Translations under genes and position numbers: made by a program
Part shown: one piece after another, positions 4,158 through 14,723 of the stretch
How the letters are laid out: each line of letters begins with the position of its first letter
Position numbering within the stretch: position 1 is the stretch's first letter
Assembly (NCBI RefSeq): GCF_011762095.1
Contig: NZ_JAASQO010000005.1
Span: 124,001 to 188,000, forward strand
Direction of reading: 5' to 3'
DNA length: 64,000 bases
Source of the DNA: Parvibaculum indicum
Lineage (GTDB): Bacteria; Pseudomonadota; Alphaproteobacteria; Parvibaculales; Parvibaculaceae
The notes under the pieces: model-generated
The model's input: the letters and a program-made list of their open reading frames with translations, nothing else
Database searches by the model: none
What the model was told of the DNA's origin: nothing

Positions 4158-4943
4158 ATGAGAATGGGACAAGAGATTCCGGTTTTTTTGATCAATCTGG
4201 CGCGGCGCCCGGACCGTCTGGAAACGATGGCGGTGCGTCTTCAGGGCACGCCGTTCGAGCGAGTCGATGCGATCGACGGCCAGGAGCTGTCGTCCACGGA
4301 GCTTGCAGCTTATACGGGCGGGAATGGCGAGCCGGCCATTTCGATTTCCGAAGCGGCCTGTGCGCTCAGTCACAGAAAGATATGGAAACAGCTTCTCTCG
4401 GAGGATATCGCAAGCGCCTGCATCATCGAAGACGATGTTCTGCTTTCTGACGAATTTCCCAAGCTTATGAAAGATGACGAGTGGCTGCCCGACGGGTTCG
4501 ACCTCATCAAGCTGGAGACGATGAAGGTCAAAGTCTATCTGGCGCGGGATATCGTATCGCAGGCGGGGGAGAGGGAGCTTCGTTTTCTCAACAGCTTTCA
4601 CGGCGGCACGGGCGCCTATATTGTGAGCAGGGGCGGGGCGGAGGCCCTGCTGAATGCAACGCACAGCATTGAACGCCCTATCGACAACATGATCTTCGAG
4701 ACGGCGCGCAAACGCGGTGCCGTGGACGTCATGCAGGTCGTCCCGGCACCTTGCATGCAGGATATGCTGTCGCCGGATGGCGGGTCGGTCAGCGACATTG
4801 CTACCGACAGATCCCTGGAGCCGGTGGAGGAAAAACCGCGGGGGCTGAAAAAAATCCTTCGCGAGGGAGGACGTCCCATTCGGCAGCTGGCCGATACGGG
4901 GCGGCGTGTGACGAACAGACGGATGGTCGTTCCGTTTATTTAG
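4158..4943 (+). CDS. Glycosyltransferase family 25 protein (LPS/capsule sugar transferase)
   Basis: The 261-residue protein starts with VFLINLARRPDRLE, the GT25 N-terminal signature, and has IIEDDVLLS, the acidic metal/nucleotide-sugar site of these LgtB/Lex1-like enzymes. It also has the downstream GTGAYIVSRGGAE segment. Family members add galactose or similar sugars to lipooligosaccharide or capsule at the cytoplasmic membrane. A TTGACA (4093-4098) upstream could be its -35. The gene and its downstream neighbour are visibly richer in A/T codons than the flanking genes and start 164 bases after tRNA-Ser, suggesting acquisition. The acceptor is unknown. Confidence 0.85.
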   Translation: MRMGQEIPVFLINLARRPDRLETMAVRLQGTPFERVDAIDGQELSSTELAAYTGGNGEPAISISEAACALSHRKIWKQLLSEDIASACIIEDDVLLSDEFPKLMKDDEWLPDGFDLIKLETMKVKVYLARDIVSQAGERELRFLNSFHGGTGAYIVSRGGAEALLNATHSIERPIDNMIFETARKRGAVDVMQVVPAPCMQDMLSPDGGSVSDIATDRSLEPVEEKPRGLKKILREGGRPIRQLADTGRRVTNRRMVVPFI

Positions 4944-4988
4944 CGCCGGGGTGCGGGAGCGCGCTGCGGAGCTATGGGAAGAGTGGAC

Positions 4989-5804
4989 ATGAGTGTTGCG
5001 GGAAAGCTGGACATACCTTTCAACGACAAGCCGAAGCAGCGCCTGAAGGCGAAAGTTCTGGCCCCGTTTCGCGAGAAGTATCGCGAAGAGCGTGCGATGG
5101 CGGCTTTGCCGGAAAGGTTGGCGACAACCTTTTTTGTAGCGCTCACAACAGAGGACCGGCGTTTTTTCTATGTCCGTAACTCCAAATGCGGATGCACGAC
5201 GGTTTCGCAGCTGATCCATGCCTATGTTTTCGGCCGGTTTTTCGAAGGGAATATCCATCTATGTGACGATATTCCCCATGGCCTCGAAAACTGGCGCCTG
5301 CATATGGAGGCGCTGGCCAACCCGGACACGACCCGGTTCACGATTGTCAGGCATCCGCTCGACCGTGTGAGGTCCGCCTTCTTCAATTTCTTCATCGACC
5401 AGAAAAACATTTCCCCTGAGCAACACATGGGGAACATGGCGGCGCTGGGGCTGGATCTCGAAGATCCGCTTGATCGAAATTTCGACCGGTTCCTCGACTA
5501 TATCGAGATGAGCTTCGAGCAAAGTCGTCTTTACACGGATCGGCATTGGCGTCCCCAGGTGGATAACATCGCCTATGGCGAGATCGATTACGATTTCATC
5601 GGCAAGCTGGAATTTCTGGAACGGGATATACGGCAGGTATTCGAGCGTGCAGGGGCGGTCGACGTTGTCGACAGATTTTTGACGGGCGCCAATTTCAACC
5701 GGTCCAGCAACAGGGGGGGCGATGAATTCGAGCCGTCTCCCCGGCAGCTCCGACGAATTCAGGATTTTTATGCCGAAGACTTCGACGCTTTCGGGTACGA
5801 TTGA
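4989..5804 (+). CDS. Sulfotransferase family 2 protein (carbohydrate-type)
   Basis: These enzymes move sulfate from PAPS to a hydroxyl, often on a surface glycan. The PAPS 5'-phosphosulfate loop is seen as YVRNSKCGCTTV and the 3'-phosphate site as FTIVRHPLDRVRSAFFNF. The overall plan matches Sulfotransfer_2. ATG 4989 gives 271 residues with GGAAG seven bases upstream; ATG 4974 (276 residues) has its GGAG too close. It follows the GT25 gene by 45 bases, so the pair probably builds and sulfates one surface glycan (inference). It is relatively AT-rich, like its neighbour. Confidence 0.82.
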   Translation: MSVAGKLDIPFNDKPKQRLKAKVLAPFREKYREERAMAALPERLATTFFVALTTEDRRFFYVRNSKCGCTTVSQLIHAYVFGRFFEGNIHLCDDIPHGLENWRLHMEALANPDTTRFTIVRHPLDRVRSAFFNFFIDQKNISPEQHMGNMAALGLDLEDPLDRNFDRFLDYIEMSFEQSRLYTDRHWRPQVDNIAYGEIDYDFIGKLEFLERDIRQVFERAGAVDVVDRFLTGANFNRSSNRGGDEFEPSPRQLRRIQDFYAEDFDAFGYD

Positions 5805-5882
5805 CGCCGCGCCGCTATATGGGCCCGTGCGCGATGACGGTATGACGCGCTGGGCGAGCTGCGGAGAATAGCAGTCCGCCCG

Positions 5883-6635
5883 TCACGCCTTGTCGGCCGG
5901 TTTCAGTGACGACAGCAGGTCCACCGGCAGCGGGAACATGATGGTGTTGGTCTTGTCGCCTGCGACGTCGTGCAGCGCCGCGAAATAGCGAAGCTGCATC
6001 GCGGCGGGTTCCGTCGCCAGTTGACGTCCGGCCTCGACGAGCTTTTCGGCGGCCTGCTGTTCGCCTTCCGCATTGATGATCTTGGCGCGCCGGTAGCGTT
6101 CGGCTTCGGCCTGTCTAGCGATGGCGCGGATCATGCTCTCATCGATATCGACATGCTTGATCTCGACATTGGCGACCTTGATGCCCCAGGCATCGGTCTG
6201 TTCGTCGAGGATCGCCTGTACGTCGGCGTTGAGCTTGTCGCGTTCGGCGAGCATTTCGTCGAGTTCGTGTTTGCCGAGGACCGAGCGCAGCGTGGTCTGC
6301 GCAAGCTGGCTGACCGCCGCCATGTAATCCTCGACATTGAGGATCGCCTTGTTCGGCTCAAGAATCCGGTAATAGAGAACCGCGTTCACTTTCACCGACA
6401 CATTGTCGCGCGAAATCACGTCCTGGCTCGGCACGTCCACCACGAAGGTGCGCAGGTCGGTCCGCACCATTTGCTGGATCACGGGGATCAGGATCATGAA
6501 GCCGGGTCCGGCGACTCGTGTATAGCGGCCGAGCGTGAAGATAACGCCGCGTTCATATTCGCGCAGGATGCGGATGGCGGAGGCCAGAAAGATGACCAGC
6601 GCAAAGAGAATGAAGGCAATGAATGCGAAGTTCAT
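5883..6635 (-). CDS. Slipin/stomatin-like SPFH protein
   Basis: The 250-residue protein has one N-terminal membrane segment ([19 protein letters not shown]), then the SPFH domain beginning [16 protein letters not shown], and a C-terminal helical part ([25 protein letters not shown]). Stomatin-like proteins oligomerise in membrane microdomains. It lies 9 bases downstream of nfeD, the classic stomatin/STOPP pair, in which the NfeD-class protease is thought to cleave the stomatin C terminus. Confidence 0.93.
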
Positions 6636-6644
6636 GGGGGGCTC

Positions 6645-8060
6645 CTAACCTTGCGGTTCGCCGAGAATGAGGGTGAGGCCGTCGAGACCGGTGACGGCGA
6701 TTTCGTCGCCGGGCTTGAGGTCGCGGGGGCCGCGGGCATGCCAGCGCTCGCTCTGGGCGAGGACATATCCCTCGCCCTCGCGCCATTCGACGACGCGCGC
6801 CTTGACGCCCGTCATGCCCTCGCGGCCCGTGGTGACATGGCGGCGCTGTTCGCGCCAGACATAGCCCAGCAGCAGGATGAGCAGCAGGCCGGTCGCAATG
6901 GTGGTGATGGCGATGACCGACCATGAAAGCTGGAATTCGGGCGCATCGCTGTCGACCAGCATGGTGGCGCCGATGACGAAGGCGACGAGCCCGCCCAGCC
7001 CCAGCGCGCCGAAAGTGGGCGTCACGGCTTCCGCCACCATCAGCCCCACGCCGAGCGCGATGAGCGCAAGCCCCGCATAGTCGAGCGGCAGCTGGTTCAG
7101 CGCATAGAAACCGAGCACGAGGCAGATCGCGCCGATAATGCCGGGGCCGAAACTGCCCGGATTGGAAAACTCGAAGATCAGGCCGTAAATGCCGATCATC
7201 ATCAGCACGAAGGCCACATTGGGGTGGCTGATGAGCGAGAGCAGTTTCGTCAGGAAACCGGGCTCGATGGTCCGGACGATGAGGCCCTTGGTTTCGAGCG
7301 TCACCTTGCCCGCGCCGGTCACGACTTCGCGCCCGTCGGCCTTTTCCAGCAGCTCGCCGACATTGCCCGCGAGGAGTTCGACGACATTGCGTTGCACGGC
7401 TTCGCTCGCGGTCAGGCTTGCGCCTTCGCGCACGGCCTCTTCCGCCCAGTCTGCATTGCGCCCGTGAAGTTCGGCCAGGCCGCGAATGAGCGCGACGGCG
7501 TCATTGACGATCTTGTGTTCCATCGCCGTGCCGCCGGACGGGGCCTTGTCGTCCCCGGCGGGCGCGTTGCCGCCATCGGCATCCTTCTGGTCCGGCGTCT
7601 TGTCGTCCTCGCCCAGTCCCGGCAGGCCGCCGCCGCCCATCTGTACGGGCGTTGCGGCACCGAGATTGCTCCCCGGCGCCATGGCGGCGAGGCCGGTCGC
7701 ATACATGATGTAGGTGCCGGCGCTGGCCGCGTGGGCGCCTGCGGGTGCGACATAGCCGATGACGGGAATATCGGCGGTGGTGATGAGCGAGATAATGTCC
7801 CGTGTAGAGTCGACCAGCCCGCCCGGCGTATTGATCCGCAGGATGAGGATATTGGCGCGCTCCGCTTCCGCGGTCTCGATGGCTTCGCCGATCTGCTTCA
7901 CTGTGGCGGGGCCGATGGCGCCGGTAATATCGGAGAGGGCGGCGATGCCGCTGCGCTGTTCCTGCTCGGCCGCGCCGGGCGCCGCGGCCCATAGAAGGAG
8001 CCCTGCCAGCGCCAGAGCGGCGGCTGCGAGGCGGCGTATCGTTGCGGGACCGGTTTTCAC
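6645..8060 (-). CDS. Long NfeD protein: ClpP-class membrane serine protease
   Basis: An N-terminal signal peptide ([25 protein letters not shown]) leads into a ClpP/crotonase-like protease domain. The serine lies in [13 protein letters not shown] and the lysine in MEHKIVNDA, giving the Ser-Lys dyad of the 1510-N family. Four or five membrane segments and a C-terminal NfeD OB-fold ([15 protein letters not shown] and on) follow. I prefer GTG 8060 (471 residues), which makes a normal signal peptide; the frame is open to a TTG at 8123. The gene is followed closely by the slipin gene and is divergent from dodecin. A Gly/Asp-rich insertion ([20 protein letters not shown] and beyond) within the protease domain is family-typical but long. 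Confidence 0.92.
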
Positions 8061-8227
8061 CTTTTTCTTTCCCTTTATTCCTCCCGGGCGGCCAAGTCTG
8101 CCAGAGGGCGGCGACAACACCAAGGCATTCCGGGAATGCGCTCCGCCCGCCCTTGCAGGGCGCCAACGGCTTCTTACGTGTCTTACGGGGCCGTTTTCGG
8201 GGGCATCCGGAAGAAGGACCCTCTCAA

Positions 8228-8434
8228 ATGACCGACAGTGTCTATAAAATCGAGGAAATCGTCGGCAGCTCTCCCAAGGGCCAGGACGCCGCCATTGAAA
8301 ATGCGATCGAAAGGGCGACGAGAACCTTGCGCAACCTCAGATGGTTTGAAGTGGTGGAATCGCGCGGTCATATCGAAGACGGCAAGATCGGCCATTATCA
8401 GGTTCGCCTGAAAGTCGCTTTCACGCTCGACTGA
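8228..8434 (+). CDS. Dodecin flavin-binding protein
   Basis: The 68-residue protein begins [20 protein letters not shown] and contains [10 protein letters not shown]. The Trp at residue 39 is the one that sandwiches flavin in dodecamers. Dodecins store or buffer riboflavin, FMN or FAD in the cytoplasm. Length and sequence match the family throughout. It is divergent from nfeD and appears to be a single-gene unit. Confidence 0.96.
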
Positions 8435-8637
8435 CCCGTAAGTCAGGGCGCGGCGACCCGCCGCACCCGCCTCCCTTTTACGGGGCTTTGCAGTAGCTTC
8501 GGACGGGGCAGATGCGCATTTCCGTATCGAGCCCTGTGTCACGGGCCGCGCTCGGGATATGCTCGGGCGGGCGCCGGCTTTCCGTCGGGGGAGGCGGCGC
8601 ACATAAAACCGTCATCCCCGCGTCGATACTGCTGCCT

Positions 8638-11600
8638 ATGAGCGTTCGCAAAAAATCCGGCCGTGCGAAGCCGTCCGATCCCCCCTCCTTCCCGGCGCGC
8701 GTGGGTTTGCGCCATGGCGCGGTGCCGGGGCGGGGGCGATATTCTGTGGACGGTCTTTACCGCTCCGCCGCCATGCGGGCGACGCTCGAACATGGGCTGG
8801 CGGGCGATGCGCAGGTGACGCGCGCCCGCATCGACCTGCGGACGGGAAATCTGCTGGTCGAATTCGACCGGGCGCTGAGCCATGCGGAGATGGCCTGGCG
8901 TATCGACAGGCTGTTGGCCGGGAAATGCGCGATACCGAAAGGCGCAAAGAAGCAGGCGCCTGCCCGGGAAAAAAAGGCGGGCGGGGGAAAGCCTCCGCCG
9001 GTCCATGAGAGCCCCGGTGCGAAAGGCCATGCCGTGTCGGCGGAAGAGGCGCTTGCCGCCGTCGCCAGCCGCCGCGAGGGGCTGGGCGTGGAAGAGGCGG
9101 CCTCGCGTCTGCGCGAACACGGTCCCAATGAATTGCCGGTCGCCAAACCGCGCTCGGACCTCGCGGTCTTCATCGACCAGTTCAAGAGCCTGCCGGTCGC
9201 CATGCTGGGCGGCTCGGCCGCCATGTCGTTGGCGACAGGAAGTCCGCTCGACGCGCTGGTGACGCTGGGCGTCGTCGGGGCCAATGGCGGCATCGGCTAT
9301 GCGATGGAATCGGGCGCGGAGAAGACGATCCACGACATTACGGGGCGTGGCGAGCATCGTGTGCTGGTCCGGCGCGAAGGTGCCGTGCGGGACATTCTGT
9401 CGCGCGAGGTCGTGCCCGGCGATGTGGTAGTGCTCACGCCCGGCGCCTTCATCGAGGCCGATGCGCGTATCGTCGAAGCGGTCGGGCTGACGGTGGATGA
9501 ATCCTCGCTGACGGGAGAAAGCGTGCCCGTGTCCAAACATGCGGGCACGCTGGACGATCGCGATGCGCCGCTGGGCGAGCGCGCCAATAGCGTCTTTCGC
9601 GGCACCATCGTCGATGGCGGCAGCGGGCTTGCCGTTGTCATGGCCACGGGCGCCGACACGGAGATCGGGCGCATTCAGGCGCTGACCGGCGAAGCGCGCC
9701 CGCCCCAGACCCCCATCGAGCGCGAGCTGGAACGGATGGGGCGCCATCTCGTCTATCTCTCGCTCGGCGTCTGCGGCGGCGTGTTCGCGCTGGGCGTGGC
9801 GCGCGGTCTGGGCACCATGCCGATGCTCAAAAGCGCGGTCGCGCTGGCGGTCGCCGCGGTGCCGGAAGGCCTACCCGCCATCGCCACCAGCACATTGGCG
9901 CTCGGTCTCGGCGAGTTGAAAAAGAAGAATGTGCTGGTGCGGCGTCTGGAGGCGGTGGAAGGGCTCGGCTCGCTCAATGTGCTCTGTTTCGACAAGACGG
10001 GCACGCTGACCCAGAACAGTATGACGGTCGAGAGCCTGCTGGTGGGGGCGGAAACGCTCCATCTGGGGACGGACGGTTTCGGCACCGAAGACGGTCATGC
10101 CGATCTCAAGCGCCATGAAATGAAGAAATTCCTGGAAGTGGCCGCGCTTTGCTCCGAGGTGAAGATCGAAGAGAACGGCAATGGGCCGCTGTTTCACGGC
10201 TCGCCCACGGAGGTGGCGCTTGTCGATCTCGCCGCGCGGGGCGGTGTCGATGTCGCGGCGGTGCGCGGCGACAATCCGGTGGACCGGGTGGCCTATCGCA
10301 CCGAGAGCCGCAAGTTCATGGTCTCGCGTCACCACCGCCTGTCGGAAGAAAAGATTTCGCTCGCCGTCAAAGGCAGTCCCGATCAGGTGTTGCAGCGGTG
10401 CCGCGTGATGGAGGTGAACGGTTCCCTCGCCGCGTTGGACGGCGAAGCGCGGTCAAAAATCCTGGCGGAGAACGAGCGCTTCGCGAGCGAGGGGCTGCGG
10501 GTTCTGGGGCTCGCCTATAGCCACGATCCGGCAAATGCGCCGGAAGAGCCTAAGGACCTCATCTGGCTCGGTCTTGTGGCGATGAAGGATCCGCTGCGCG
10601 GCGGCATGGCCGATCTGATGGCGGAATTCCACAAGGCGGGCATCCGCACGGTCATGATTACGGGCGATCAGCCCGCCACGGCATATGCCATCGCCAGAGA
10701 AGTCGGTCTGGCGGGCGCGGCGGAGCCGGTGATCGTCGATGCGGCGAAACTCGACGGTTTGTCGCCGGAGGCCTTTCGCGGCACCGTCGCGGGCGGCAAT
10801 GTATTCGCGCGGGTGAGCCCTGCGCGAAAGCTCGAAATCATTCGGGCGCTTCAGGAAACGGGGATGCGTGTCGGCATGACGGGCGACGGCATCAATGACG
10901 GTCCGGCGCTCCGGGCCGCCGATGTCGGCATCGCCATGGGGCAGGGCGGTGCGCAATCGGCGCAGGATGTCGCCGATGTGGTCATTCGCGACGACGATCT
11001 CACCACGCTGGGCGCAGGCATCGCGCAGGGCCGCGCGACCTATGCGAATATCCGCAAGGCGATCCATTTTCTGCTGGCCACCAACCTCTCCGAAATCGCG
11101 ATTGTCGCGGCGGAGACGATGGCGCCGGGCGACCAGCTCGAATCGCCCATGGAAATGTTCTGGATCAATCTGGTGACGGATATTCTGCCCGCGCTCGGGC
11201 TTGCGCTGGAAGAGCCGGAGCAGGGCATCATGTCGGTGCCGCCGCGCGATCCCGAGGCGCCCATGTTCACGGCCGATTATTACAAGATGCTGGCAAGCGA
11301 GGCAGGCATCATCTCGGCGGCGTCGCTGGCCGCGCATGGATACGGCCTGCTGCGCTACGGGCCGGGGCCGCGCACGCGCAGCATCACCTTCTCGACTCTG
11401 ATCGGGTCGCAGCTTCTCTTTGCGCTGTCATGCCGTCACGACCGCTTCCACGGGCTCTCGGGCGGCGGGCTGTTCGGGAATAAATATCTGAACGGAACGC
11501 TGACCGCGGCGGGCGCGCTTCAGATTCTGCCGCTCGCCTGGCCGCCGCTCCGCCGGCTGCTGGGGCTGGCGCCCATCGGAATTTCGGACGGGCTCGTCAT

Positions 11601-11691
11601 CGGCGGCAGCATGCTCGCTTCCTTCGCCGGCACGGAATATCTGCTGGCGCGGCGGACGATGAAGAATGCGGGACCGCAACCCGTCGCTTGA
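8638..11691 (+). CDS. P-type ATPase, P2A (Ca2+/Mn2+-like) core with N-terminal HMA-like domain
   Basis: The predicted 1017-residue protein (ATG 8638; the frame is open to 8512) contains a 60-residue HMA-like domain near residues 20-90 without a CxxC. A Lys/Pro-rich linker, a Cation_ATPase_N domain, the A domain (LTGESVPVSKH), phosphorylation site DKTGTLTQNS (D452) and hinge TGDGINDGPALRAAD follow. M4 reads VAAVPEGLPAIATS (PEGLP at 409-413), M5 NLSEIAIVAAE and M6 INLVTDILPALGLAL. These retain the Glu, Asn-Glu and Asn-Thr-Asp residues that bind calcium in SERCA-type pumps. It is not a CPC heavy-metal pump. The likely role is export of a divalent cation. It converges on the HMA-like/DUF5132-like pair with a 20-base gap. 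Confidence 0.85.
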   Translation: MSVRKKSGRAKPSDPPSFPARVGLRHGAVPGRGRYSVDGLYRSAAMRATLEHGLAGDAQVTRARIDLRTGNLLVEFDRALSHAEMAWRIDRLLAGKCAIPKGAKKQAPAREKKAGGGKPPPVHESPGAKGHAVSAEEALAAVASRREGLGVEEAASRLREHGPNELPVAKPRSDLAVFIDQFKSLPVAMLGGSAAMSLATGSPLDALVTLGVVGANGGIGYAMESGAEKTIHDITGRGEHRVLVRREGAVRDILSREVVPGDVVVLTPGAFIEADARIVEAVGLTVDESSLTGESVPVSKHAGTLDDRDAPLGERANSVFRGTIVDGGSGLAVVMATGADTEIGRIQALTGEARPPQTPIERELERMGRHLVYLSLGVCGGVFALGVARGLGTMPMLKSAVALAVAAVPEGLPAIATSTLALGLGELKKKNVLVRRLEAVEGLGSLNVLCFDKTGTLTQNSMTVESLLVGAETLHLGTDGFGTEDGHADLKRHEMKKFLEVAALCSEVKIEENGNGPLFHGSPTEVALVDLAARGGVDVAAVRGDNPVDRVAYRTESRKFMVSRHHRLSEEKISLAVKGSPDQVLQRCRVMEVNGSLAALDGEARSKILAENERFASEGLRVLGLAYSHDPANAPEEPKDLIWLGLVAMKDPLRGGMADLMAEFHKAGIRTVMITGDQPATAYAIAREVGLAGAAEPVIVDAAKLDGLSPEAFRGTVAGGNVFARVSPARKLEIIRALQETGMRVGMTGDGINDGPALRAADVGIAMGQGGAQSAQDVADVVIRDDDLTTLGAGIAQGRATYANIRKAIHFLLATNLSEIAIVAAETMAPGDQLESPMEMFWINLVTDILPALGLALEEPEQGIMSVPPRDPEAPMFTADYYKMLASEAGIISAASLAAHGYGLLRYGPGPRTRSITFSTLIGSQLLFALSCRHDRFHGLSGGGLFGNKYLNGTLTAAGALQILPLAWPPLRRLLGLAPIGISDGLVIGGSMLASFAGTEYLLARRTMKNAGPQPVA

Positions 11692-11711
11692 GCTCGTCGC
11701 GGCGCCGGAGG

Positions 11712-12320
11712 CTATTTCTTCGTGTCGTCCGTCGTTTTCATTTCCTCGAACGATGAGGAGCGCAGCGAGTTCAGCGCATACCAGAGTGCCGACAAGGCGG
11801 GCATGGCGATGCGGCCGCGCGCAAGCTGCACCATTGCGACAAGCGAGAAAAAGAGAAAGGCGGCGGTGTTGACGTCGATCGACCCGGCCGAATTGCGGCG
11901 GAGCAGTTTCTCCATGTCCCGCATTCGCCCGCGCAGGCCTTGCATGACGTCGGGCCCCGGTTCGGGAGTTTCCATGATGAAGAGGCCCGCCCCGAGCGCA
12001 CCCTTGCTCAGCTCGTCGAAATCCCCCTGATAGCGGATCAATATGCCTGCCGTCAGCGGGTTGGCTTCCACCGAATAGACGCCGGGCAGGTCGACCATCG
12101 CATGGGCGAGTTCTTCCAGCGCCTCGCGCTCGCGCCTGAGCGAGGGCAGGCGGAGGCGTGCGCGGTCACGCGTCAGATGTTCGAGGGTCGCGGAAGGGGG
12201 CGGCGGCGCGGTGCGTTTCGTGGCACGGCGCTTCGCAGCGGGTTTGCGGGCCGTTGTGCTTCTGGCGGTTGCGCTCTTGCCGGTCTTCTTTTCCGGGCCG
12301 TCCTGTTTCTTCGCGGGCAT
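11712..12320 (-). CDS. HMA-like domain protein with basic N-terminal tail and C-terminal membrane segment
   Basis: The 202-residue protein starts at ATG 12320, one base after the stop of the upstream small gene. Residues 1-40 are Lys/Arg/Ala/Pro-rich. A ferredoxin-like domain follows (RARLRLPSLRREREALEELA, then LPGVYSVEANPLTAGILIRY). It has the beta-alpha-beta rhythm of HMA domains but no CxxC. A hydrophobic segment (VNTAAFLFFSLVAMVQLARG) lies near the C terminus. Exact function is unknown. The same kind of Cys-less HMA-like domain heads the convergent P-type ATPase, so this is probably a partner or regulator of that pump (inference). Confidence 0.7.
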   Translation of the reverse strand: MPAKKQDGPEKKTGKSATARSTTARKPAAKRRATKRTAPPPPSATLEHLTRDRARLRLPSLRREREALEELAHAMVDLPGVYSVEANPLTAGILIRYQGDFDELSKGALGAGLFIMETPEPGPDVMQGLRGRMRDMEKLLRRNSAGSIDVNTAAFLFFSLVAMVQLARGRIAMPALSALWYALNSLRSSSFEEMKTTDDTKK

Positions 12321-12321
12321 G

Positions 12322-12576
12322 TCAGCTCTCGCTGGAGGGGGCGCGGCTTTCGGCGAGTTCCGCTTCCGCCTCGGCATAGGCGTCTTCGACGATTTCCATG
12401 AATTCGGCGAAGCTCTCGCCGGCGCGTTCGGCGAGAATGACCGCCGTCCTGGTCGCGGTCTTTGCCGCCGGTTTGGCCGCGCGCAGCAGGGCGGGCGCGA
12501 TGACGGGGCCGAAGACGAGGGCGCCGGCGGCTGCCGTGCCGAGGGCGGCCAGACCGAATGTGAGGCGTGCAGACAA
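12322..12576 (-). CDS. Small DUF5132-like membrane protein
   Basis: The 84-residue protein starts at a TTG (12576-12574) with a strong GGGAGGA four bases upstream; the longer open frame upstream has no such site. A hydrophobic stretch (FGLAALGTAAAGALVFGPVIA) is followed by a Lys/Ala helix and an acidic Ala/Glu-rich tail (EDAYAEAEAELAES). This resembles DUF5132 proteins and, in overall plan, the mycobacterial PacL (DUF1490) partners of P-type ATPases. Its stop and the next ATG are separated by one base, so the two are translationally coupled. Family assignment is from memory of the pattern and is only moderately sure. Confidence 0.65.
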   Translation of the reverse strand: MSARLTFGLAALGTAAAGALVFGPVIAPALLRAAKPAAKTATRTAVILAERAGESFAEFMEIVEDAYAEAEAELAESRAPSSES

Positions 12577-12672
12577 GCTTTCCTCCCGCGTTGGGTGGCT
12601 TTCAGTCAAATTCCAGACAGAGAGTGTGCTTTCGCAATGTGACGGGCACAACCGCAAAAAGAAGCGTCGCGG

Positions 12673-12708
12673 AAAACGAAAAGGGAGCGCTCATGAAAGG
12701 GCGCTCCC
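12673..12708 (-). terminator. Terminator after the rhodanese gene
   Basis: On the minus strand GGGAGCGC (12708-12701) pairs with GCGCTCCC (12690-12683), followed by TTTTCGTTTT (12682-12673). It lies 35 bases after the rhodanese stop and separates that unit from the DUF5132-like gene. Confidence 0.85.
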
Positions 12709-12743
12709 GAAATCCTTCGCTACGATGAAAGCCGCCGCTGTCG

Positions 12744-13061
12744 TCAGCGTTCGACCTTGTGGCCGGCCTTTTTCCAGGCTTCGATGCCGCCTTCCAGATA
12801 GAATCCTTCGCAGCCGCCCGCGCAGCCGGAAAGCTGGTCCTCGAATTTCTGGGTGCGCATGCCGCCCTTGCAGTGGAACACGACCGGCTTGTCGCCGAGA
12901 CCGGCGATCGGGTCGTTGCCGATGCCGGAGAGCGGGACGAGTTTGGCGCCGGGAATACGCTCGGCGGCGGTCTCGTTCGGTTCGCGAATGTCGACCAGCA
13001 CGCAATCGCCATTGGCGAGCCATTTTTCCACGGTCGTCACGTCAACGGGCTTCAAAGACAT
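12744..13061 (-). CDS. Single-domain rhodanese (sulfurtransferase)
   Basis: The 105-residue protein has the rhodanese substrate-entry motif VLVDIREPNE and an active-site loop HCKGGMRT with the catalytic Cys. It carries extra cysteines in a GCAGGCEGF stretch, seen in rhodaneses of sulfide/persulfide systems. It transfers sulfane sulfur from persulfide or thiosulfate to acceptors. It follows a two-cysteine ArsR-type regulator by 10 bases and is probably in its operon, which points to reactive sulfur handling. Confidence 0.92.
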   Translation of the reverse strand: MSLKPVDVTTVEKWLANGDCVLVDIREPNETAAERIPGAKLVPLSGIGNDPIAGLGDKPVVFHCKGGMRTQKFEDQLSGCAGGCEGFYLEGGIEAWKKAGHKVER

Positions 13062-13071
13062 TGTTCGTTCC

Positions 13072-13398
13072 TCATTTCTTCACGCCGGGCGGACAGAAGA
13101 TATCGACCAGCGTGTTGATAATGGCGAGGGCGGCGGGAGAGGCGAGGCGATAGTAGATGGTCTGTGCTTCGCGCCGCGTCTCGACAAGGCCGAGATCGCG
13201 CAGAACGGCCAGATGCTGCGACAGGGCCGATTGGCCGATGCCGATCAGATCCTGTATCTGGCCAACCGACAGTTCCCTGTCCGCGATCTGGCACATGATG
13301 AGCAGGCGGCGCTCATTCGACATGGCACGCAATAGTTGAGCGGCATCCGCCGCGCTTTGCTCGAGTTCCATGATGGTTGCATCGACCGTTTCGGCCAT
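13072..13398 (-). CDS. ArsR-family regulator, BigR/SqrR-like (two conserved cysteines)
   Basis: The 108-residue winged-helix protein has its recognition region at LIGIGQSALSQHLAVLRDLGLV and a wing at AQTIYYRLA. Counting from ATG 13398 (GGGAG eight bases upstream; GTG 13407 is an alternative), Cys36 lies in the LLIMCQIAD helix and Cys102 in the C-terminal FCPPG. Two such cysteines forming a (poly)sulfide bridge define the SqrR/BigR persulfide sensors. It heads a unit with a rhodanese and has AT-rich dyads over its own promoter, so it is probably an autorepressor released by persulfides. The lack of metal-binding CxC argues against arsenic sensing. Confidence 0.85.
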   Translation of the reverse strand: MAETVDATIMELEQSAADAAQLLRAMSNERRLLIMCQIADRELSVGQIQDLIGIGQSALSQHLAVLRDLGLVETRREAQTIYYRLASPAALAIINTLVDIFCPPGVKK

Positions 13399-13438
13399 CT
13401 TGCCCACTCCCGGCTGCCCCGCAGCCTTTCATGTGTTA

Positions 13439-13467
13439 CTTATATAAGAACTAATTGATATATTCAA
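13439..13467 (-). promoter_or_regulatory. Promoter and candidate operator of the ArsR-rhodanese unit
   Basis: On the minus strand TTGAAT (13467-13462), a 17-base spacer and TATAAG (13444-13439) form a good promoter. The palindrome CTTATATAAG (13439-13448) covers the -10. A TTGA/TCAA inverted repeat (13455-13467) covers the -35. The -35 overlaps the stop codon of the upstream flavoprotein gene. Confidence 0.75.
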
Positions 13468-14723
13468 GTCCCGGTCGGATCGTCTCCCGATCCGGAGATC
13501 GAAGGTGAAAGTTGGCGGCTTGCCCCCAGGCCCGCCCTCAGGCCGGTGGCAAGACAGGCGGTCAGGAGATAGCCGCCCGTCGGCGCTTCCCAATCGAGCA
13601 TCTCCCCCGCGCAGAAAACGCCGGGGAGGGCCTTGAGCATCATAGCTCCATCCAGTGCATCCTGCGCAATGCCGCCCGCCACGCTTATGGCACTCTCCAT
13701 GGAAGATGGTTTGTCGAGGCGCAGCGGCAATGCCTTGATGGCGTCGGCGAGCGTTTCGGGCGAAAGAAACGCCTCTTTTGCCGCGCATTCTCGCAAGAGG
13801 GCGGCCCTCACCCCTGAAATGCCGGCCGCCTTGCGCAGATGATTGGCCAGTGAGGCCTTGCCGCGCGGACGCGAAAGATCGCGGACGAGCCTCTCCCGGC
13901 TGCGGTCGGGCGCAAGGTCGAGCCGGAGCGTTGCCTCGCCCGACCGCTCGATTTCGTCGCGCAGAAGGCGGGAAAGCGCATAGATGGCGCCGCCCTCGAC
14001 CCCCGACGCCGTGACGACGAATTCGCCCTCCAGCCGGTTTCCCGCGACGGTGAGTGCCACCGGTTTCACCGGGGCGCCCGCGAAACGCTCGCGCATATGT
14101 GCAGACCAGACGGTCTCGAAGCCGCAATTGGCGGGCCGGAAGGGGCGTATGTCCACGCCCTGCGCCGCCAGCAATCCCGTCCAGTCGCCCCGCGCGCCAA
14201 GCCGTGGCCAGCTTGCACCGCCAAGCGCGAGAACGGTTGCATCCGGCGCAATCCGGATCTCGCCCTCCGGCGTGTCGAAGGTCAGGGCGTTCGTATCGTC
14301 CCAGCCGGTCCAGCGATGTCGCGTATGCAGCGCCACGCTCTTTTCGTTCAGGCGGCGCAGCCACGCACGCAGCAGGGGCGAGGCCTTGAAACTTTCGGGA
14401 AAGACGCGGCCCGACGAGCCGATAAAGGTTTTCTGGCCCAGGCTTTCCGCCCAGGCGATCACCTCTTTCGGCCCGAAGGCGCGCAAGGCCGGTTCGAGCC
14501 AGTCCGCCGCTTCGCCATAGCGCACCAGAAAGGCGTCGAAAGGTTCCGAATGGGTGATGTTGAGCCCGCCGCGCCCTGCCATCAGGAGCTTCCGTCCGAA
14601 TGACGGCATGGCGTCATAGACATGGACGGCGACGCCCGGCGCCCTGTCGGCAATCGTCTCGGCGGCCATCAGGCCTGCCGGGCCGCCGCCTATGATGATC
14701 GCTTTGGGGCTATCCTCTTTCAT
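13464..14723 (-). CDS. HI0933/BaiN-family flavoprotein (TIGR03862-like)
   Basis: The 419-residue protein has an N-terminal FAD-binding Rossmann motif (AIIIGGGPAGLMAAE) and the family signatures GRKLLMAGRGGLNITHSE and GSSGRVFPESFKA. It ends in AGEMLDWEAPTGGYLLTACLATG. This is the YhiN/BaiN class of NAD(P)/FAD oxidoreductase, whose best-known member acts in bile-acid 7-dehydroxylation but whose role in most bacteria is unknown. It is divergent from the DUF188 gene. Confidence 0.9.
   Translation of the reverse strand: MKEDSPKAIIIGGGPAGLMAAETIADRAPGVAVHVYDAMPSFGRKLLMAGRGGLNITHSEPFDAFLVRYGEAADWLEPALRAFGPKEVIAWAESLGQKTFIGSSGRVFPESFKASPLLRAWLRRLNEKSVALHTRHRWTGWDDTNALTFDTPEGEIRIAPDATVLALGGASWPRLGARGDWTGLLAAQGVDIRPFRPANCGFETVWSAHMRERFAGAPVKPVALTVAGNRLEGEFVVTASGVEGGAIYALSRLLRDEIERSGEATLRLDLAPDRSRERLVRDLSRPRGKASLANHLRKAAGISGVRAALLRECAAKEAFLSPETLADAIKALPLRLDKPSSMESAISVAGGIAQDALDGAMMLKALPGVFCAGEMLDWEAPTGGYLLTACLATGLRAGLGASRQLSPSISGSGDDPTGT

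Follow-up and report, generated by a model that had tools for sequence, protein, structure and literature searches.

A P2A-type ATPase encoded with a DUF5132 protein and a Cys-less HMA_2 protein in Parvibaculum indicum: relation to PacL and Fez-type pump platforms

What links a P2A-type P-type ATPase to a small DUF5132 membrane protein and an HMA_2 membrane protein encoded beside it? The question is raised by a locus of Parvibaculum indicum (RefSeq assembly GCF_011762095.1, contig NZ_JAASQO010000005.1, positions 124,001 to 188,000 of the forward strand; this whole 64,000-nucleotide stretch is referred to as the window). A first-pass annotation of the DNA had described a pump gene converging on genes for a small membrane protein and an HMA-like accessory protein, and all three are indeed present (Table 1). 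The three parts are supported as functionally linked by their co-occurrence across genomes, the domain that two of them share, and their gain or loss as a block. We read the locus, with a probability of roughly 0.55, as a three-part membrane cassette in which a Ca2+/Mn2+-type P2A pump would work with a PacL/FezA-like scaffold kit. The components themselves, the shared domain, their long-term co-inheritance and a profile link between DUF5132 and DUF6110 were all observed.

Co-inheritance of the three genes

In an even sample of 385 genomes from the same class as the window, DUF5132 was found in five genomes and HMA_2 in nine. All five DUF5132 genomes encoded an HMA_2 accessory protein directly beside DUF5132 together with a pump carrying an N-terminal HMA_2 domain, this pump being of P2A type in four and P1B type in one (G358). 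The chance of all five falling within the nine would be about 2e-9 if the two families were independent and shared ancestry is ignored. When 84,980 species genomes were scanned with the alignment of pumps, 80 best-matching P2A loci were obtained, 12 with HMA_2 and 68 without it; DUF5132 plus the accessory gene lay in the flanks (up to 10 kb) of 8 of the 12 HMA_2-bearing loci compared to none of the 68 plain P2A loci. Three of the remaining four have the DUF5132-accessory pair elsewhere in the genome, and the fourth, in a Burkholderiales metagenome-assembled genome (MAG), has the pump domain only and no pair. The first-pass annotation had tied the three proteins together from position and pattern, and had named a lack of co-occurrence as what would speak against the tie; these counts speak for it.

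The carriers are phylogenetically scattered, comprising the alphaproteobacterial Mesorhizobium, Ensifer, Aquabacter and a Microvirga plasmid as well as Desulfovibrio, Desulfotignum, Thermodesulfatator, a Myxococcota MAG and a Chloroflexota MAG. The proximity of pump and pair persists despite a varying gene order: the pair lies on the pump's strand, as in an operon, in three loci (L038, L042 and L082) and is convergent with the pump in the window and in L026, L027, L028 and L037. The DUF5132 profile was also found in at least two genomes of a wider phylum sample, a search that makes a poor census because at most 12 candidates were scored per genome. In three rhizobial-type loci (L040, L043 and L117) the pump is surrounded by a tandem pair of DUF5132 genes and a pair of genes for HMA_2 accessory proteins.

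Within the window's genus, where HMA_2 was found in 4 of 27 genomes, the cassette behaves as one block that a single site either has or lacks. G015 and G017 have it at the same site as the window, and the G023 contig breaks off inside the pump gene; six genus members without the cassette have the same flanks, the NfeD-dodecin genes lying next to the HI0933-type gene. In a tree of 87 pump cores (N-terminal region removed, FastTree only), all 19 HMA_2-bearing P2A pumps fell on one side of a branch with a support of 100. Pump and pair lie on opposite strands in the window, as chance neighbors with unrelated functions might, but co-occurrence, domain sharing and block gain and loss refute such an explanation, to which we attach next to no probability.

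As to the neighboring genes, the stomatin/NfeD pair and dodecin gene beside the cassette in the window (5883-8434) are also conserved in genus members that lack the cassette. Genes for an ArsR-type regulator and a rhodanese (12744-13407) adjoin the window cassette too and are common to G015; they were not found at the empty sites of genus members lacking the cassette or in G017. Further afield, the gene of the HMA_2-bearing P2A pump is directly followed, in the same orientation, by an S-adenosylmethionine synthetase gene in each of two distant genomes (L026:6023-7210 and L039:13000-14190), and a DUF445 membrane protein is encoded near the cassette in several lineages and with both pump types (L026:8184-9455, L029:8151-9452, L040:13631-14923 and L117:11699-12997). 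The G358 cluster has an EcsC-family gene between the P1B pump and DUF445 (L029:7324-8154). In Desulfovibrio UBA6079 an ArsA-type ATPase gene adjoins the cassette and an unassigned 210-aa protein is encoded between accessory and pump (L038:7019-8278 and L038:9274-9906).

The HMA_2 domain and the DUF5132 protein

The HMA-like domains of pump and accessory, which had been judged alike and Cys-less from the letters alone, proved to be so on comparison. They match with a profile-profile probability of 98.9 (E 1.6e-17) and are given the same fold by AlphaFold; a CXXC motif is present in none of 47 HMA_2 domains, and an R-x-R pattern near the start in all 47. P1B6-type pumps have N domains of the same family (E 1e-16 to 1e-18 by profile comparison), ordinary Cys-bearing HMA domains being much less similar in a control set of three sequences only. 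That the accessory might be a metallochaperone giving metal to the pump was considered and dropped, since no HMA_2 domain has CXXC. A 967-aa HMA_2-bearing frame in G774, taken up as a possible further P2A case, was set aside; its pump segments match the conserved core only, as those of P1B pumps do.

In the pump, the domain is predicted to be a ferredoxin-like beta-beta-alpha-beta-beta-alpha fold with a predicted local distance difference test score (pLDDT) of 83-92, and is followed by a linker (residues 97-128, pLDDT < 40) that is probably flexible. Its match to the Pfam HMA_2 model is weak (13.2 bits versus a cut-off of 30), and the pump ortholog of G017 exceeds that cut-off with 31.9 bits. 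The accessory protein scores well above it (45.9 bits, E 7e-12), its own ferredoxin-like domain being modeled with a pLDDT of 96-97 over most of its length and followed by a helix and two transmembrane (TM) helices (modeled at residues 169-186 and 193-214, with hydropathy maxima at 167 and 190). The accessory gene lies on the minus strand, 20 bases past the pump stop in the window's numbering, and its start overlaps the DUF5132 gene; this start is ambiguous between 12377 and an ATG at 12320, a single base beyond the stop of DUF5132.

The Foldseek neighbors of the accessory domain include the metal-binding HMA domains of MerP, CsoZ/CopZ and ATP7B, and the accessory profile had chance-level matches only among PDB sequences. 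H67, R72 and R74 are invariant in 17 aligned accessory proteins. Together with the R-x-R pattern of the whole family and its lack of CXXC, this invariant H-x4-R-x-R could indicate domains that bind an unusual ligand (e.g., an anion, phosphate or a lipid headgroup) and serve in sensing or cargo handling; the two Arg residues, however, sit in the fold's first strand and could be structural there, and we consider such a role improbable.

The small protein had been called DUF5132-like. The assignment holds, if by a narrow margin: the window protein reaches 25.1 bits against the PF17195 cut-off of 25 in the genome search and falls just under it in hmmscan (23.8 and 24.7 bits), and seven of seven homologs match the family. 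Its 84-residue form starts from the TTG at 12576, with a strong Shine-Dalgarno sequence (GGAGGAAAGC) in front. A Gly/Ala-rich TM segment (hydropathy peak at residues 9-27) is followed by a P-x(2)-AK hinge, a Glu/Ala helix and an acidic tail, the pattern P..P.AK...AE..E..ED..AEA.AE being conserved in the alignment of 16-17 homologs. Cys and His are both absent from the window protein. The DUF5132 profile had chance-level matches only among PDB sequences, and our literature search found no paper mentioning DUF5132.

Table 1. Features of the cassette, with positions in the window
Feature	Position	Strand	Basis
P2A-type P-type ATPase, 1017 aa (ATG start at 8638; stop ends at 11691)	8638..11691	+	Pfam/NCBIfam domains; LMCA1, SPCA1 and SERCA closest structures; clade membership
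HMA_2 domain of the pump, Cys-less, residues 22-93	8701..8916	+	AlphaFold; profile comparison; weak Pfam match
Accessory HMA_2 membrane protein, 221 aa (202 aa from the alternative start at 12320)	11712..12377	-	PF19991
C-terminal two-helix membrane hairpin of the accessory, residues 169-214	11736..11873	-	AlphaFold; hydropathy
HMA_2 domain of the accessory, residues 62-136	11970..12194	-	AlphaFold; Foldseek
DUF5132 small membrane protein, 84 aa, TTG start	12322..12576	-	PF17195; homolog alignment; hydropathy
Shine-Dalgarno-like GGAGGAAAGC upstream of the DUF5132 TTG	12577..12587	-	Sequence

Relation to PacL, DUF6110-P1B6 and ferrosome systems

The first-pass annotation had suggested a new kind of efflux platform. 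This part of its proposal is too strong, because the same HMA_2 domain is already known from P1B6-type pumps, as is a related small protein; the cassette is a P2A version of the PacL/DUF6110-P1B6 (Fez-type) pump platform and not a wholly new kind. The DUF6110-P1B6 pairing is that of the fez clusters of ferrosomes, which are membrane-bound iron organelles, FezB being a P1B6 pump and FezA a DUF6110-like protein. Next to clostridial DUF6110 genes, the adjacent pump has the same HMA_2 domain wherever the neighborhood could be read. The DUF5132 and DUF6110 profiles match with an hhalign probability of 90 (E 1.5e-6), the score being 40.8, against 18.5 with the profile reversed and a maximum of 16.2 over 100 column shuffles, and the matches are reciprocal, i.e., the DUF5132 hidden Markov model (HMM) finds DUF6110 proteins and the DUF6110 HMM finds DUF5132 proteins. 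By these profile comparisons, the cassette has two Fez-like features, an HMA_2-type pump N domain, Cys-less as in the DUF6110-associated pumps, and a DUF6110-like small protein. It differs in that its pump is P2A and not P1B6. A tblastn search of plasmids with DUF6110 returned two Deinococcus records only, and DUF1490 was not found on two actinobacterial plasmids.

PacL1, a DUF1490 protein with one TM segment and Glu/Ala repeats, gathers the zinc pump CtpC into membrane foci and maintains CtpC abundance (PMC9374683). The same group describes DUF1490 proteins as relatives of the DUF6110 proteins, whose genes typically accompany those of P1B6-ATPases (PMC9374683, PMC13043812). The PacL plan that had been ascribed to the small protein stands as regards its one TM segment, its Glu/Ala-rich helix and the DUF6110 profile link, and does not extend to a metal-binding tail; of the profile searches that had been suggested, DUF5132 and the accessory HMA_2 passed their cut-offs, whereas the pump N domain was weak and Pfam DUF1490 gave no match to DUF5132 proteins at E values up to 10. 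The mycobacterial effluxosomes (PacL with CtpC, CtpG or CtpV) similarly keep a small one-TM protein with a Gly-rich TM helix and Glu/Ala-rich helix beside a P-type ATPase. Their pump is P1B while that of the window is P2A, and the window adds an HMA_2 membrane protein.

Several points weigh against the scaffold reading. The window pump lies outside the transcription unit of the pair. The DUF5132-DUF6110 match comes mainly from the acidic helix, and Pfam's own DUF6110 model gave no match to DUF5132 proteins. To PacL/DUF1490 the window protein is tied putatively, by way of DUF6110. The C-terminal His/Asp metal-binding motif of PacL is missing from the window DUF5132, which has neither Cys nor His. 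Finally, the specificity of the P2A pump, be it for Ca2+, Mn2+ or another ion, is a prediction from its residues.

Two further clusters connect the pump types. In a cyanobacterial plasmid (Gloeothece verrucosa, L118), NCBI-annotated DUF5132 and HMA2 genes lie beside a heavy-metal P-type ATPase, so that the two accessory families of the window again adjoin a P-type ATPase that bears HMA_2; here the ATPase is of P1B type and the HMA2 protein longer (about 522 aa). In a MAG (L191), a single locus of about 10 kb (4473-14338) encodes two DUF5132 proteins and two small HMA_2 proteins along with one pump of P2A and one of P1B type; both pumps carry HMA_2, and the P1B pump has a CPC motif.

The occurrence of both pump types in one locus, and the association of P1B6 pumps with HMA_2 and a DUF6110-type protein, speak for one of the two main rivals to the scaffold reading, a ferrosome-like compartment. 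DUF5132 and the HMA_2 protein would then shape or mark a membrane vesicle, with the P2A pump moving a cytoplasmic divalent cation (Ca2+ or Mn2+) into it. Ferrosomes of C. difficile do require FezA and the pump FezB (PMC12574912; see also PMC11334425). No FezC-type cytochrome gene was recognized beside the cassette, however; moreover, the related PacL proteins are scaffolds that act at the plasma membrane with no organelle (PMC9374683). We hold such a compartment to be unlikely, and slightly more doubtful still the broader notion that the HMA_2-DUF5132 kit is a general builder of membrane compartments or platforms used by two unrelated pump families, by which P2A carriers would make a Ca2+- or Mn2+-loading counterpart of the ferrosome.

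Predicted cargo and mode of action

Pfam recognizes E1-E2_ATPase, Hydrolase, Cation_ATPase_N and Cation_ATPase_C in the pump. Its top-ranked NCBIfam models are those of PMR1-type and SERCA-type Ca2+ pumps, both below their curated equivalog cut-offs (516.8 versus 798.3 bits and 454.7 versus 703.4 bits, respectively). The nearest PDB chains by sequence are the Listeria Ca2+-ATPase LMCA1 and human SPCA1 (also SERCA), and the nearest structures by fold SPCA1, SERCA and LMCA1. With LMCA1 and SPCA1/PMR1 the pump shares the core fold, the catalytic motifs and the site residues of TM4, TM5 and TM6; it differs in the extra N-terminal HMA_2 domain and linker, in its separate clade and in the position of T847, which is Ser in 12 of the 19 HMA_2-bearing P2A pumps. 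The site residues themselves (E410 in TM4, N816 and E819 in TM5, N844 and D848 in TM6) are kept in 17-18 of the 19 clade members, and the TM8 residue is Gln (925), which most plain bacterial P2A pumps also have. Because the TM4/TM5/TM6 residues are kept, the evidence favors Ca2+ or Mn2+ as the likeliest cargo.

From these data we infer clustering, docking, cargo and direction of transport as follows. The pump would export a divalent cation from the cytoplasm. The Gly-rich TM helix of DUF5132 probably mediates oligomerization of the protein in the membrane, and its exposed Glu/Ala helix would gather or stabilize pumps. The HMA_2 domains, one on the flexible linker of the pump and one on the TM hairpin of the accessory, would probably dock with one another or with the scaffold rather than carry metal.

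The other main rival would have DUF5132 and the accessory as small regulatory subunits that tune the turnover of a single pump, as phospholamban and sarcolipin do with SERCA, rather than as scaffolds that cluster pumps. A one-TM protein beside a SERCA/SPCA-like pump, with both partners membrane anchored, is what such a regulator might look like. The same small-protein family nevertheless also accompanies P1B pumps of a different subfamily, and the tandem DUF5132 and accessory copies of the rhizobial-type loci fit an assembly better than 1:1 regulation, which leaves this alternative about as unlikely as the compartment.

On the scaffold reading, what is new is the P2A pump in a PacL/DUF6110 setting, and with it a cargo that would be of Ca2+/Mn2+ type rather than a heavy metal. 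Since the three genes travel together across distant bacteria, a kit described so far only around iron- and zinc-type pumps appears also to serve a second, unrelated pump type. The cassette shows the scaffold kit of metal P1B pumps (PacL platforms and DUF6110-P1B6 pairs) to be portable between pump families, and it turns two unnamed Pfam families, DUF5132 and HMA_2, into a testable system in cultured genera such as Mesorhizobium, Ensifer, Aquabacter and Microvirga. For the Cys-less HMA_2 domain it further suggests a role as an assembly module rather than in metal binding, a point of relevance to the construction of pump platforms and ferrosomes.

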